Virus record (IMG/VR): IMGVR_UViG_3300037585_000217 | Coordinates: 1-37,806 of that record | Strand: one strand, 5' to 3' | DNA length: 37,806 nucleotides | Origin: a virus | Shown: positions 29,282 through 36,726 of the stretch, one piece after another | Layout of the letters: every line of letters begins with the position of its first letter | Position numbering within the stretch: the stretch's first letter is position 1 | Translations under genes and position numbers: made by a program | Notes under the pieces: generated by a model | The model's database searches: none | Told to the model about the DNA's origin: nothing | Seen by the model: the letters and a program-made list of their open reading frames with translations, nothing else

Positions 29282-30055
29282 CTATTTTCTCCTTTCATCT
29301 ATAACAGTAGTTTCAGATGGATCATAGTTCTTAAATAATTTCCAGTATGTCAACAGACTGTTGAACATCTGTAAGTGTTTAGGATGTGTACTCTTATCCC
29401 ATCTGTGTGGAACTATTAATCCTGTATCCTTTCTGTCTACAAAAATGGATACTCTTTCTGGATCATCAAAGCCACAGCCTTCAGCGTAAGCTGATAACTG
29501 CATACCATGTTCATTGAACACAAGCTTAGATCCTTCTTTACCATCTAGGTTGTCTTTAGTTTTAAAGTCAACAAAGATTCCTGATTTAGAATACAAGTCT
29601 ATCTTACCACCATAACCTGCGTCAGCACAGAACGAACTCTCTGCTACCCATTCCTCGTTAGGAAATATTTTATCCAAGTATTCTTTTATAATTAAGTAGG
29701 GCTTGGTTTCCTTACCACCTGCAAAGCCTTGCTCTATCATAGCATGGATAGTTGTACCCATCTCTGCTGCTTGCTTACCTATACTCTTTGAATGCTCCTT
29801 ACATCTGTAGAAGAACTGTGAGTCAGACTCGTCTTTGTTTTTCTTTAATGTAAGTGCAGCAGTAATTGCCTGATTAATTTTCCAGTTTTCAAGTGGTGGT
29901 TTTGATGCAACACCAAGGATGGTAGTAACAGATGGTACATAACCATGCTTCCTAGCATCCTTTAGATTGGTGTTGCGCTCTTTTCCATTAGAGCCAACAA
30001 CTGTGTATGCAGCTTCTCCTGTCTTATCATACCAGTGTTCAGACTCTTTCTCCAT
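29282..30055 (-). CDS. PD-(D/E)XK exonuclease, RecB/Cas4-like
   Basis: The motifs are in order. GTTIHAMIEQ (residues 100-109) has the conserved His. GGKIDLYS has Asp153. FVDFKTK has Asp163-x-Lys165. HGMQLSAYAEG has the QxxxY motif. This is the RecB-family nuclease fold used by many phage recombination exonucleases. The 257 residues are a single domain, without a helicase. The N-terminal motif YVPSVTTILGVASKPPLENW, typical of phage members, is also present. It follows the SSB-like gene with a TAATG overlap, so exonuclease and ssDNA-binding protein are coupled, as in phage recombination modules. Likely role: processing of DNA ends in recombination and host DNA breakdown. Confidence 0.85.
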   Translation of the reverse strand: MEKESEHWYDKTGEAAYTVVGSNGKERNTNLKDARKHGYVPSVTTILGVASKPPLENWKINQAITAALTLKKNKDESDSQFFYRCKEHSKSIGKQAAEMGTTIHAMIEQGFAGGKETKPYLIIKEYLDKIFPNEEWVAESSFCADAGYGGKIDLYSKSGIFVDFKTKDNLDGKEGSKLVFNEHGMQLSAYAEGCGFDDPERVSIFVDRKDTGLIVPHRWDKSTHPKHLQMFNSLLTYWKLFKNYDPSETTVIDERRK

Positions 30056-30951
30056 TATGCAAATTCCTCTGCTGTAATATCAATGAAATCGTCAACAGTT
30101 TCTGTGTCAACATCCTCATGTTTTTTCATATTCTCATCCCATGCATTTGTAATGTATCCATTATAATTAGATACCCATGCTAGGAAGTTTGCAAAGGTTT
30201 CCTGTGCATCATCATCCATTTCAAGAGTTTTTGTCAAGTCAAGTGTTACTGATGGTAGATAAAAACAATTACCATTAGGTAGCTTACGTTCTTCTGTAGC
30301 TAATTTTACATAGTGTTGAATTGGTAGTCGTTTCATCTTATTTAGTTTATTAAATACAACAGTACCAAAAGTCTTAAATGCATCTCTGTTCTCTACTTCC
30401 CAGATAAATGGTGTAGCTCCTATAGAAACTGATGCACCTGTCTCATCAACAGGATTGTCTAGTTCTATTGTACCAAACAGTACACGTACACGCTTTATTT
30501 GTTTAAGTAAATCCTGCATTTTTTCAGGTAATGACTTAAAATCCTGTATGTATCCTGCAGCTTTACCACAGTTAAATCCACCATCATTATCCTTCAGATC
30601 AATGTTAAGATTGTCTGCCATGATAGTTTTAATATACCTATTCGGTGTAGTATCTGTCTTCATTACAAAACGCTTGTACATAAATCTTTGCATGTAAGGT
30701 CTTATAGTAGCTGTATCAGAGTAGTATGTTGGCCCATCTGGTATGTCCAACTTATATGTACCACCACTTACAACTTCTACGTTGACCATTTTACCATTAA
30801 CTTCTGACCTACCCATGATAGGTGCATGGTTAATACGCACACGAGCCAGTGCGTCTGCTTTTTCTTTATTAGATCCTGTATCCATAACCATGCCCATAGC
30901 CTTTGCCATTGCTGCATAGTCCTTAGTATTTATATTTGCTACTTCATTCAT
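30055..30951 (-). CDS. Single-stranded DNA-binding protein candidate (298 aa)
   Basis: A strand-rich body (NGKMVNVEVVSGGTYKLDIP, KRVRVLFGTIEL, GASVSIGATPFIWEVENRDA) is followed by an acidic C-terminal tail (KKHEDVDTETVDDFIDITAE) ending in an aromatic-containing EFA. An OB-like middle plus an acidic tail is the plan of phage SSBs such as T7 gp2.5, and the gene precedes the exonuclease in the same place as in phage recombination pairs. Sequence similarity to a named SSB family was not recognised, so the function is inference. AAAGGAG precedes the ATG. A strong promoter sits about 35 bases upstream, so this gene heads a second leftward transcript. Confidence 0.5.
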   Translation of the reverse strand: MNEVANINTKDYAAMAKAMGMVMDTGSNKEKADALARVRINHAPIMGRSEVNGKMVNVEVVSGGTYKLDIPDGPTYYSDTATIRPYMQRFMYKRFVMKTDTTPNRYIKTIMADNLNIDLKDNDGGFNCGKAAGYIQDFKSLPEKMQDLLKQIKRVRVLFGTIELDNPVDETGASVSIGATPFIWEVENRDAFKTFGTVVFNKLNKMKRLPIQHYVKLATEERKLPNGNCFYLPSVTLDLTKTLEMDDDAQETFANFLAWVSNYNGYITNAWDENMKKHEDVDTETVDDFIDITAEEFA

Positions 30952-30984: not shown

Positions 30985-31013
30985 GTTATATCATGCCACA
31001 TCTTTTGTGTCAA
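30985..31013 (-). promoter_or_regulatory. Strong sigma-70-type promoter for the SSB-to-mazG half of the operon
   Basis: On the minus strand the -35 hexamer TTGACA (31013-31008) is perfect, the spacer is 17 bases and the -10 hexamer is TATAAC (30990-30985) with an extended TGA in front. It overlaps the last codons of the DNA polymerase gene. The expected transcript starts near 30978, about 27 bases before the SSB-like ATG. It shares GATATAAC with the capsid promoter. Confidence 0.75.
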
Positions 31014-33039
31014 GCCAATTATCTCCTATTTTTGCTTCTAATAATAATGGCACGTTAAAGTCTATATTCCATCTACTATTTATTATATTTATTAAGTTAT
31101 CGTTCGTTGCTTTTACTATTCTTATTACCTTATCTGTTTCATCTGGATGTACATCAATAACAATACTATCATGCACTGTATTTACTACACAACTTTGCAT
31201 AGAGTTTTTCTCCAGTAGCTTATCTATGTATATCAGAGATATAGGTACGATGTCAGCAGTTGCAAAGGATTGAACAGGATAATTCTTTATCTGTGTGAAA
31301 AATGTCACACTTCCATTACGTCTACGCTGTACATTAGGCCATGTAAATTCTCGTCCAGATGGTGTTTTAATTCTACCTGTACTTAATATCTCACTTGCTA
31401 ATCTTTTATGCCATTCAGATATACCTTTATACTTAGTTGTAAACTGTTTATAGTAGGCAGCTTCTGCTTCTGTTCTACCAAACCCACTTGCACCATACAA
31501 AGGAGCAAACGTATGTGCCTTGGCCTCTTGTCTAGACATAGGCTGACCTGCATCACTAATAACTTTAGCTGTATAACTATGCACATCAAAGCCTGTGGAT
31601 ACTTCTTCTATAGCTACCTTGTCCTGACTAAGGAATGCAGCTACACGAAACTCTAGCTGTGCAAAGTCTGCTTCCATGATCTGTCCACCTTCCCATCGTG
31701 ATACAAATACTTTCTTTACTGGAAATGTACCACCTCTAGGCATGTTTTGCATGTTAGGATTAGCACCCGACAGCCTACCTGTACCTGTTCTATGCTGTAG
31801 TAATTGAACATGTAGCATACCATCGGACTTAATATGTGTAGATATACCTTCAACAAAGCTAGATAAATATGTATCTAGTGCTGATAATCTTCTAACACGT
31901 TGCAAGAATACCACAGCATCTTGAAAGTTACGTTCTCTGGCATTTGTCTCTAGCTTTATAAGATTGTCCTTACTTGTACTAAATCCATGTGCGCTTACCC
32001 AATCAGGGTTAGGAGCTATAAACTTCAAACCTGCTATCTCTTTAGTATCTGTAAATAAATAACCTTCGGCCTTACACTCTAAACACTTACTAGTATTAAC
32101 AAAAGGCTTACCATTCTTTTTAGTTCTACGTACCTTACCTGTACCCTTACAACTAGTACACTGTCTTGCCTTCTGTTTATATAACACAGATGATTTGTTT
32201 TTTATAACTGATTTAAACTCTGAGTCAGTAAATCTAGGTTCAAACGAGTTAGCCCACATAGGTTTGTCATGTGGCTTTCTACTATATATAATCCACGATA
32301 ATTGTTCAGGACTATTTAGATTAATTGGTCTATCTCCCATCAATTCATGCACTTGAGACTGTAATTTTGTTAATAACTCCTGTTTTTCCTGTTCAAACTC
32401 CTTACGTACCTCTTCTAATGTATCTGTATTAACATTAAAACCTCTCTGATATATACGTGCAAGCTGTACACATATCTGATTAGTTAATTTAGTAGTAGAT
32501 TCTAATCCTTTATCTTCTTGGCTTAGTTTGTAGTCTAACTTCTTATATAATTCCATAGTTGCATGTAAATCTGCTGATAAATACTGTGATAACTCTGCGT
32601 GAGGTATATCTCTAGTTGTATATCCCTTATTAAAGTAATCTTTTAGTGTACCCATCTTCTGTGTATCACACTTATATCTTTCGGCTAGATATTCAAGGCT
32701 TAAAGGTTCTTTCTGTCCTCTTTGTATGATGTATGCACCTAACATGGTATCAAATATCTCACCATTGTAGGTAAAACCTGACTCCCATAGCCATGTTAAG
32801 TCATGCACTGCATTCTGCATCACCAAGAGGTGGGTATCATCCAGAATGTTCTGGACAATACTTCCACCCTCAGTGGTAGGTTGTTGCTCACTGTGATCAA
32901 ACGTAATAATATTTTCTCCAGAGTGATTTAACATGCCTACCATAGTCAATGAGTTTTCTGATTCAAAAGGATCAAGCATAAGCTTATTGTTACGTTTAAT
33001 AGTAGTATTTTCTACATCTAAAACTGTTACAACTTTCAT
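30991..33039 (-). CDS. Family A DNA polymerase with partial DnaJ zinc-finger insert
   Basis: The 682 residues include a 3'-5' exonuclease with Asp8/Glu10 (VLDVENTT), Asn76-Asp80 (NAVHD) and Tyr153-Asp157 (YLSAD). The polymerase domain has motif A Asp458 (EADFAQLEFRV), motif B Lys507, Phe511 and Tyr515 (AKAHTFAPLYGASGFG) and motif C Asp624 (TVHDSIV). Between the thumb sequence LNSPEQLSWIIY and FSTSKDNL lies an insert of about 100 residues. It holds CTSCKGTG (Cys294, Cys297) and CLECKAEG (Cys319, Cys322), the core of the DnaJ central domain. This polymerase type is known from HMO-2011-like phages. It replicates the genome. The start ATG overlaps the previous stop (ATGA). The residue equal to E. 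coli Pol I 762 is Phe. Confidence 0.95.
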   Translation of the reverse strand: MKVVTVLDVENTTIKRNNKLMLDPFESENSLTMVGMLNHSGENIITFDHSEQQPTTEGGSIVQNILDDTHLLVMQNAVHDLTWLWESGFTYNGEIFDTMLGAYIIQRGQKEPLSLEYLAERYKCDTQKMGTLKDYFNKGYTTRDIPHAELSQYLSADLHATMELYKKLDYKLSQEDKGLESTTKLTNQICVQLARIYQRGFNVNTDTLEEVRKEFEQEKQELLTKLQSQVHELMGDRPINLNSPEQLSWIIYSRKPHDKPMWANSFEPRFTDSEFKSVIKNKSSVLYKQKARQCTSCKGTGKVRRTKKNGKPFVNTSKCLECKAEGYLFTDTKEIAGLKFIAPNPDWVSAHGFSTSKDNLIKLETNARERNFQDAVVFLQRVRRLSALDTYLSSFVEGISTHIKSDGMLHVQLLQHRTGTGRLSGANPNMQNMPRGGTFPVKKVFVSRWEGGQIMEADFAQLEFRVAAFLSQDKVAIEEVSTGFDVHSYTAKVISDAGQPMSRQEAKAHTFAPLYGASGFGRTEAEAAYYKQFTTKYKGISEWHKRLASEILSTGRIKTPSGREFTWPNVQRRRNGSVTFFTQIKNYPVQSFATADIVPISLIYIDKLLEKNSMQSCVVNTVHDSIVIDVHPDETDKVIRIVKATNDNLINIINSRWNIDFNVPLLLEAKIGDNWLDTKDVA

Positions 33040-33191
33040 TTCATTTCCTCTATCTTTACCACAATATAACTATCAAGTATATCTCGTACCATTTGTGGGC
33101 CATGAGCAAACAAAGTTATACTTTCTGTATCATGCTCTGCATTTATCTCATACTCCACGTAGTATTTAATCCTTGGTGATTTTAACATCAT
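33036..33191 (-). CDS. Small protein upstream of the polymerase (51 aa)
   Basis: The start is the ATG at 33191 (a second ATG follows at 33188). GAGGAG lies 7 bases upstream, and any longer frame would reach further into the endonuclease VII gene. The product has a strand-turn-strand start (PRIKYYVEYEINAEHDTESI), a helix (GPQMVRDILDSYIV) and a final strand with VKIEEMK. That is a small alpha/beta fold of about 50 residues with an acidic end. Its stop overlaps the polymerase start (ATGA), so the two are translationally coupled. No family recognised. A polymerase accessory role is conceivable from position only. Confidence 0.6.
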   Translation of the reverse strand: MMLKSPRIKYYVEYEINAEHDTESITLFAHGPQMVRDILDSYIVVKIEEMK

Positions 33192-33633
33192 GTAACTTCT
33201 CCTCATGTCTTTCCATATATTTAACAGCATTCTTTATTGTTGTCAAGTCATCTCTAAATCCACCTAAACCATCGTTACAGTGTTTACATATGTATCCACG
33301 AAACGTATCTGTATCGTGGCAATGATCTAACACCCATGTACCTAAAAGTTTTTGATTGTATTTATTAACCTCATCTATCTTTCTTATACAAATAGGACAT
33401 GCATAGTCTTTATCCTGTGGGTATATATTTTTCTTTCTTAGGTCAGAAATTACTCGCCTATGCCCAGAACTACATGATTTACATGTTCTCTTTACTTCTG
33501 CATTCTCTGTATTCTTATAACTCATTTGTTGAAAGTTACTGAGTGGCTGTCTTATATCACATTTTATACATACATAACCATCCTCATTAATCTCTTGGAC
33601 AATTTCTAAGTCAAACAACTCACCCTGACTCAT
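33166..33633 (-). CDS. Recombination endonuclease VII
   Basis: The C-terminal half is a clear Endonuclease VII domain. Cys79-x-x-Cys82 and Cys116-x-x-Cys119 are expected to bind zinc, with LDHCHDTDTFRGYICKHCN carrying Asp103, His104 and Asn120 of the His-Me finger active site. The GLGGFRDD that follows is also typical. The N-terminal half has another four-cysteine element (CIKC, Cys22/25, and CKSC, Cys51/54), probably a second zinc ribbon. The enzyme cuts branched DNA before packaging. It overlaps the helicase by ATGA. This is a second resolvase besides endonuclease I at 28593-29093, which belongs to a different fold. Confidence 0.88.
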   Translation of the reverse strand: MSQGELFDLEIVQEINEDGYVCIKCDIRQPLSNFQQMSYKNTENAEVKRTCKSCSSGHRRVISDLRKKNIYPQDKDYACPICIRKIDEVNKYNQKLLGTWVLDHCHDTDTFRGYICKHCNDGLGGFRDDLTTIKNAVKYMERHEEKLHDVKITKD

Positions 33634-35640: not shown

Positions 35641-36726
35641 CTACTTCGTAGATTTTAAACTATCTGTTCTCTGTGTCAAGGCATTATTTGCACTGAGATA
35701 TGTATGTTTCATATATGGTTGCACAGAAGACACATGTGTATGTCCTGTCACTGCCATTACTTGTGGCAATGGTACTCCTGCATCCACCATTTGTGTCACT
35801 CCTGTCCTTCTCAAGTCCATTAATCTTAGTGTCTCAGGTAACATGGCTTCACGCATGATAGCCCTTCCATTTTTAGATAGTCGCTCTAAAGGATAGGGTC
35901 TAAACACACCCTGTATGGGGCTAGGATGAGGTGCTACGTACCTTTGAAAGCCGAAGTCTTTGTGTTGATCTTCTAACATGCCCAATAAGTCCTCTGAAAT
36001 GGGTAAAAATACCTCTGCTCTACGCTTACTTTGTTCAAGGTGTAACTGCTTATCTTCCCAGTGTATATTATCCCATTCTAGTGTCCTCATGTCACCTAAT
36101 CTTTGACACCATTCATATGCCATTTGTATAATCAGACCAACATTACGATACTGAAACTTAGAATATGCAACATCAAGAAATTTACGTACATTATCCTCTG
36201 TCCATACAACCTTTCTCTTTTTTACTGCCTTACGTTTTATATTAGAGAATGGATTTAGTATGGCGTGTTCCATCTCAATCGCATAATTAAATACACGTGA
36301 TGCACAGGTAGCTGTGTGATTTGCAAGGCTCACACCACGCAAAACCCACTCTTCATATATACCCTTGGCAACCTTTGTTGTTACATTTTTATATTTAACT
36401 GTGCCAATTTTGTCACACACTATACTTAGGAAGTATTTGTAATCCACTTTAGTTGTATCACGTAACATATTGAAATCATTAGACATATAGTATAACTCAA
36501 TCAAATCTTTTACTGTACTCTTTTCTGTGATTACAAATACCTGCGACTGTGTGTCACGCCACTCATCTATTGCCTTGTTGTCTTCACGTACAAGTTTACG
36601 CACCTCTTGCAGGTCAGTGCCAAAGGTTTTTCTGGTCACTACACCTGCATCAACAAGGTTTTGAGGTGGGTTGTAACGATACTCCCCACTCTCTCTTTTT
36701 TGTACATATCTTGGTAGTTTAATCAT
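35641..36726 (-). CDS. Tyrosine recombinase (phage integrase)
   Basis: Residues 60-160 form a SAM-like core-binding domain and 170-350 the catalytic domain. Box I Arg209 is in QRLGDMRTLEW and the beta-hairpin Lys234 in EQSKRRAEV. Box II is MDLRRTG with Arg306, where the usual His of HxxR is Met303. His329 is in TGHTHVS and the nucleophile Tyr338 follows exactly 9 residues later. The enzyme would integrate phage DNA at an attachment site. The start overlaps the DUF932 stop (ATGA) with GAGGT in front. It is in the replication operon, as in many marine podoviruses. I found no tRNA-like att sequence next to it. Confidence 0.88.
   Translation of the reverse strand: MIKLPRYVQKRESGEYRYNPPQNLVDAGVVTRKTFGTDLQEVRKLVREDNKAIDEWRDTQSQVFVITEKSTVKDLIELYYMSNDFNMLRDTTKVDYKYFLSIVCDKIGTVKYKNVTTKVAKGIYEEWVLRGVSLANHTATCASRVFNYAIEMEHAILNPFSNIKRKAVKKRKVVWTEDNVRKFLDVAYSKFQYRNVGLIIQMAYEWCQRLGDMRTLEWDNIHWEDKQLHLEQSKRRAEVFLPISEDLLGMLEDQHKDFGFQRYVAPHPSPIQGVFRPYPLERLSKNGRAIMREAMLPETLRLMDLRRTGVTQMVDAGVPLPQVMAVTGHTHVSSVQPYMKHTYLSANNALTQRTDSLKSTK

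Follow-up and report, generated by a model that had tools for sequence, protein, structure and literature searches.

An HMO-2011-type phage encodes a family A DNA polymerase whose thumb carries a small cysteine-rich finger, conserved within a single clade of polymerases, matching the zinc module of DnaJ and containing a strongly basic hairpin. By analogy with thumb insertions of other family A polymerases, we give roughly even odds (a probability of about 0.5) to the reading that this finger, braced by zinc at the thumb tip, would serve as a DNA-holding processivity element. The position, conservation, charge and distribution of the finger are described below, together with the other roles that might account for them.

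The phage and its polymerase

The window, that is the whole stretch of DNA that was analysed, is a viral record of 37.8 kb. Its polymerase is 65–72% identical to those of CRP-345, CRP-1 and HMO-2011, its coat protein shares 81% identity with that of CRP-345 and 79% with that of HMO-2011, and its genes for primase, helicase and polymerase follow the HMO-2011 order; these three features together identify the window as an HMO-2011-type phage. Between helicase and polymerase lie an endonuclease VII gene (155 aa, PF02945, E 3.8e-13) and a 64-aa ORF (33036–33633, minus strand), whereas the two genes directly adjoin in HMO-2011. A tyrosine integrase gene (35641–36726, minus strand) lies beside that of the primase and hints at a temperate phage, a lifestyle reported for CRP-3. 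Since phage contigs identical in name and length are present in both Flavobacteriales and Neomarinimicrobiota metagenome bins, the bin names are uninformative about the host.

The polymerase gene (30991–33039, minus strand, as are all features below) encodes 682 aa, and its product is a family A (Pol I type) enzyme with a polymerase domain, its catalytic residues and a 3′–5′ exonuclease. In Pfam, DNA_pol_A (PF00476, E 5.6e-57) extends to aa 676 and the exonuclease match (PF01612, E 6.2e-10) spans aa 60–172 (32524–32862). Among 94 aligned relatives, the polymerase residues D458, E463, R503, K507, F511, H623 and D624 are invariant, as are Y153 and D157 of the exonuclease, and D8, E10 and D80 are kept in at least 90%. 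Foldseek places Bst and Klenow polymerases at the top of the matches to the AlphaFold2 model, with TM scores of about 0.7–0.8. HMO-2011-type polymerases have been described as carrying, between exonuclease and polymerase, a partial DnaJ domain in which the CXXCXGXG motif occurs twice (PMC6918029, PMC9038755), in line with the remark in the initial annotation that such enzymes are known in HMO-2011-like phages. The window polymerase shares this domain, although its second motif, CLECKAEG, is degenerate, A replacing G. It is the same gene as in HMO-2011, CRP-1, CRP-2, CRP-3 and HTVC033P, with 35–72% identity, the partial DnaJ domain and the primase–helicase–polymerase order in common.

Position of the insert in the thumb

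The interval singled out by the initial annotation (31950–32330) encodes polymerase residues ~237–363, and the motifs read there are all present: LNSPEQLSWIIY (helix H1, residues 244–252), CTSCKGTG (294–301), CLECKAEG (319–326) and FSTSKDNL (353–360). The structure was predicted with AlphaFold2 on the 94-sequence alignment for the polymerase chain alone, and the model reached a mean pLDDT of 93.4 and a pTM of 0.87, the blocks of the finger lying at about 88–93. The predicted thumb comprises the long helix H (aa 205–234, 32338–32427, assigned from the model with DSSP and aligned to the E. coli Pol I thumb), H1 (PEQLSWIIY, 32284–32310, aligned to Klenow STKQLQTILF), H2 (aa 357–369, 31933–31971, following GFSTS and aligned to Klenow STSEEVLEEL) and the long helix I (aa 373–402, 31834–31923). 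The insert of about 99 residues (aa 253–351, 31987–32283), delimited by alignments and by comparison with sister polymerases, sits between H1 and H2 in the model, where the stretch is folded into two short helices and the strands 287–293 and 327–335, which flank the zinc module.

At this site bacterial Pol I reads NINSPKQLGVILFEK, a tip of ~14 residues and GYSTD, and the phage polymerase reads NLNSPEQLSWIIY, 99 residues and GFSTS; pairwise alignment equates the site with approximately Klenow 594–606 of E. coli Pol I. Sister phage polymerases have a tip of ~21 residues here, against ~14 for E. coli Pol I. A full-length MAFFT alignment of T7 with the finger polymerases wrongly laid the thioredoxin-binding domain (TBD) of T7 polymerase on the finger. 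The segments were therefore aligned pairwise with Pol I instead. In these alignments a single gap ahead of the FNxSS/H1 motif accommodates the TBD (T7 residues ~264–332), and the insert of the window polymerase opens past H1. Both are basic thumb insertions of ~70–100 aa in phage family A polymerases, and they differ in that the TBD precedes H1 and has no zinc motif; homology between them is rejected on position, the window insert lying after H1 and not between H and H1. Alignments with Pol I and T7, the short tips of fingerless sisters and the model of the polymerase alone thus concur with the initial placement of the insert in the thumb, one helix away from the TBD site. Its location at the thumb tip, just beyond that helix, is well supported by alignment and prediction, and is new relative to the published descriptions consulted.

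A single DnaJ-type zinc module

The zinc-finger module with its flanking predicted strands occupies aa 287–335 (32035–32181). Within it, DnaJ_CXXCXGXG (PF00684) matches aa 289–330 over profile positions 13–55 of 65, with an E value of 1.6e-5 and a score of 25.5 bits, below the Pfam gathering score of 32.7. The first cysteine knuckle, CTSCKGTG, lies at 32137–32160 and the second, CLECKAEG, at 32062–32085; C294 and C297 in the former and C319, C322 and G326 in the latter are invariant in the 94 relatives. As a single-sequence query against the PDB, the finger returned no convincing match. A profile of 24 fingers has as its best PDB match the Cys-rich domain of E. coli DnaJ (1exk, E 8.4e-6), over motifs 2–3. 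All 24 fingers match PF00684, and seven of them also match the anti-TRAP family (PF15777). The Cys-rich domain of DnaJ/Hsp40, anti-TRAP-like modules and the phage finger have in common a CxxCxGxG–hairpin–CxxCxGxG layout.

The resemblance to DnaJ goes no further. DnaJ has four motifs forming two zinc centres and the finger only two motifs, hence one module against two, its hairpin is lysine-rich, and no J-domain was matched in the polymerase by Pfam at E 1. The sole HPD tripeptide of the polymerase, at residue 631, falls in its C-terminal polymerase region. Membership of the DnaJ/Hsp40 family is therefore rejected for want of a J-domain and of two of the motifs, and the insert, judged by its sequence, is best described as a single DnaJ-type zinc module with otherwise nothing of DnaJ.

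Conservation and origin of the finger

Relatives were collected from IMG/VR with peptide patterns, keeping the best 80 per scan. Some of these patterns overlapped the insert; DFAQLEFR-like and VYDTMLAEY-like patterns did not, and with patterns outside the finger all 70 distinct full-length relatives listed have the paired CxxC. A separate scan, made with two exonuclease patterns and a fingerless sequence first, involved no selection for the finger; among its best 80 sequences, 64 carry the paired CxxC and the remaining 16 are fingerless sisters. Across the 94 aligned relatives, the four invariant cysteines rank second to fifth in conservation of 682 positions. The ratio dN/dS is 0.085 in the finger, 0.128 in the whole insert and 0.072 in palm and fingers. 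The first and third cysteines are 25 residues apart in 196 sequences and 37 apart in 11; in the latter, CRP-738-like variant, the hairpin holds 12 extra residues. The paired-cysteine finger is not a product of chance, and the fact that all full-length members of the clade recovered possess it is consistent with a role linked to the polymerase.

In a tblastn search of a phage collection at E values up to 1, the finger was found in 12 records only, all of HMO-2011 type. A FastTree phylogeny built without the insert columns unites 61 finger polymerases in one clade with a support of 1.0, whose sister is a group of 18 fingerless phage polymerases with tips mostly of 20–27 residues, and of 47 in two. 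The simplest reading of this tree is that the finger was acquired a single time, at the root of the clade. The nearest family A relatives of the finger polymerases are StenR_269-like polymerases and those of MEP402 and Alcaligenes phages, which have at the finger site a tip of ~21 residues or a zinc-free β-hairpin; for StenR_269, a single-sequence query yielded one relative only, and an alignment query was used instead.

The hairpin is predicted at residues 243–276 of the MEP402-like polymerase, at the same thumb site and with the basic turn KTGVRAGE, in an AlphaFold2 model of moderate quality (mean pLDDT 78.4, below 60 at the tip). This polymerase is split into two ORFs, between which MEP402 has an ORF of 78 aa. 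Direct descent of the finger from such a hairpin is not supported, because the sister clade is short-tipped. The two 47-residue tips of the fingerless clade contain three cysteines (GKCDAKGNPCKKPCKG) and are perhaps an independent small metal site at the finger position, and the polymerase of Alteromonas phage R8W has a thumb-tip insert of 125 residues devoid of Cys pairs. Given this last insert, the H1–H2 loop of phage polymerases has the look of a hot spot for insertions.

Possible roles of the finger

The two knuckles enclose the hairpin KVRRTKKNGKPFVNTSK (aa 302–318, 32086–32136). It ranks first in basicity among the 666 stretches of 17 residues in the polymerase, and its G310 is invariant in the 94 relatives. 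Net charge over residues 298–318 is positive in 94 of 94; K288, K305, K307 and K318 are conserved, with R at position 305 in the window. Per 100 aa, the insert carries a charge of +9.8, compared with −4.3 in the exonuclease and +0.9 in palm and fingers, and the equivalent hairpin of E. coli DnaJ has one basic residue in the profile alignment. Thumb insertions of other enzymes offer models for such a hairpin. According to PMC13365964, insert 1 (Ins1) at the thumb tip of Pol θ and Pol ν contacts DNA, with a role in binding and processivity, and insertion 1 of plant organellar polymerases also contacts DNA. Truncating the Klenow thumb cost the enzyme processivity and fidelity (Minnick 1996, cited by PMC10061031), and in the TBD of T7, basic residues lie on the DNA backbone (PMC5984650).

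A possible mechanism is that one zinc, held by the pair of CxxC knuckles, braces the lysine-rich hairpin; the basic finger would then reach across the product duplex behind the active site and grip its backbone, which would raise DNA affinity and processivity. The finger would thus be a built-in counterpart of the T7 TBD with thioredoxin and of insert 1 of Pol θ and Pol ν. Like insert 1 and the plant insertion 1, it is a thumb or thumb-tip insertion, its site being equated with that of Ins1 from the published description. The likeness is one of position, and the passages of PMC13365964 consulted describe no zinc finger for insert 1. The basic hairpin, the DNA contacts of the Pol θ, Pol ν and plant inserts and the effect of thumb truncation together favour the DNA-holding role. 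Counting against it are the polymerases of the sister clade, whose short tips show that the core enzyme can do without the finger, and the mobile thumb β-turn of phiVC8 DpoZ described below, which moves without DNA contact.

Acidic protein tails are also bound by basic hairpins, and the main rival to DNA holding is that the finger chiefly docks the product of the adjacent downstream gene by its acidic C-terminal tail. This gene (30055–30951) encodes 298 aa with a net charge of −7 in the last 25 residues, and from its position and tail the product is a candidate phage ssDNA-binding protein (SSB), an identity for which Pfam, PHROG and NCBIfam give no family match. Among the downstream neighbours of finger polymerases listed, the last 25 residues have a median charge of −7 and reach −5 or lower in 85% of 186 distinct proteins, whereas the gene on the upstream side, which encodes the helicase in both the window and HMO-2011, has a product whose tail is not acidic (median +2, 52 distinct). 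Outgroups have SSB-like tails at the same gene position, DDIPF in MEP402 and Alcaligenes phages, and the T7 SSB, gp2.5, docks on the TBD via its C-terminal tail (PMC7699545). The neighbours of fingerless sister polymerases are, however, acidic-tailed too (median −5, n = 14), and such a tail is therefore no special mark of finger polymerases. Docking by analogy with T7 appears unlikely to be the main role. DNA holding and docking are mutually compatible, and we tentatively entertain a broader scenario, somewhat less probable than DNA holding by itself, in which a zinc-braced basic thumb-tip finger, gained once, replaced a borrowed host clamp and also docks the phage SSB tail.

A finger that is mainly structural, or that regulates primer transfer between polymerase and exonuclease as a rigid lever with no direct gain in DNA holding, is a more doubtful proposition than docking. 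In the phiVC8 polymerase DpoZ, thumb tip and exonuclease move jointly and a mobile thumb β-turn swings without contacting DNA (PMC8599892), and the zinc-free hairpin modelled at the same spot in the MEP402-like outgroup indicates that a protruding tip need not carry zinc; but a passive lever needs neither conserved lysines nor the highest basic charge of the enzyme. Recruitment of host DnaK, as by DnaJ in lambda replication, or of another host clamp factor is very improbable. The match to the DnaJ module over motifs 2–3 and the mention of the role of DnaJ in lambda replication for HMO-2011 phages (PMC9038755) speak for it; yet the finger has two of four DnaJ motifs, there is no J-domain, the HPD tripeptide falls outside the finger at residue 631, proteins with no link to DnaK, such as the anti-TRAP family, have comparable single modules, and the hairpin is far more basic than that of DnaJ. 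The DnaK-type partner first suggested for the finger is accordingly weak.

Relation to published work and significance

Published accounts of HMO-2011-type polymerases give no thumb position, charge, outgroup or mechanism; in the literature checked on them (including PMC6918029 and PMC9038755) the word ‘thumb’ is absent, and no function was found assigned to the partial DnaJ domain. Among the open-access texts searched, none linked a zinc finger, the thumb and phage DNA polymerases of family A. As sequences in PMC9038755 were picked by the CXXCXGXG motifs, its statement that all members have them is partly circular. What is added here is that the finger corresponds to DnaJ motifs 2–3 only, with no J-domain; that its four cysteines occur in every full-length clade member recovered, as one group beside short-tipped sisters; and that no stretch of the polymerase is more basic than its hairpin.

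In surface-ocean virome sets, HMO-2011-type enzymes account for as much as 19.7% of the family A polymerases (PMC9038755). Now that the domain is placed at the thumb tip, a specific and testable role in processivity or replisome docking can be proposed for it, with the fingerless sisters as natural controls, and the finger could serve as a graft module for Pol I-type enzymes. It would add a zinc-based route to the ways in which family A polymerases turn replicative. If the broader scenario above is true, it would be a self-contained processivity element of one of the most widespread marine phage groups, and no zinc finger would have been known before in a family A polymerase thumb.
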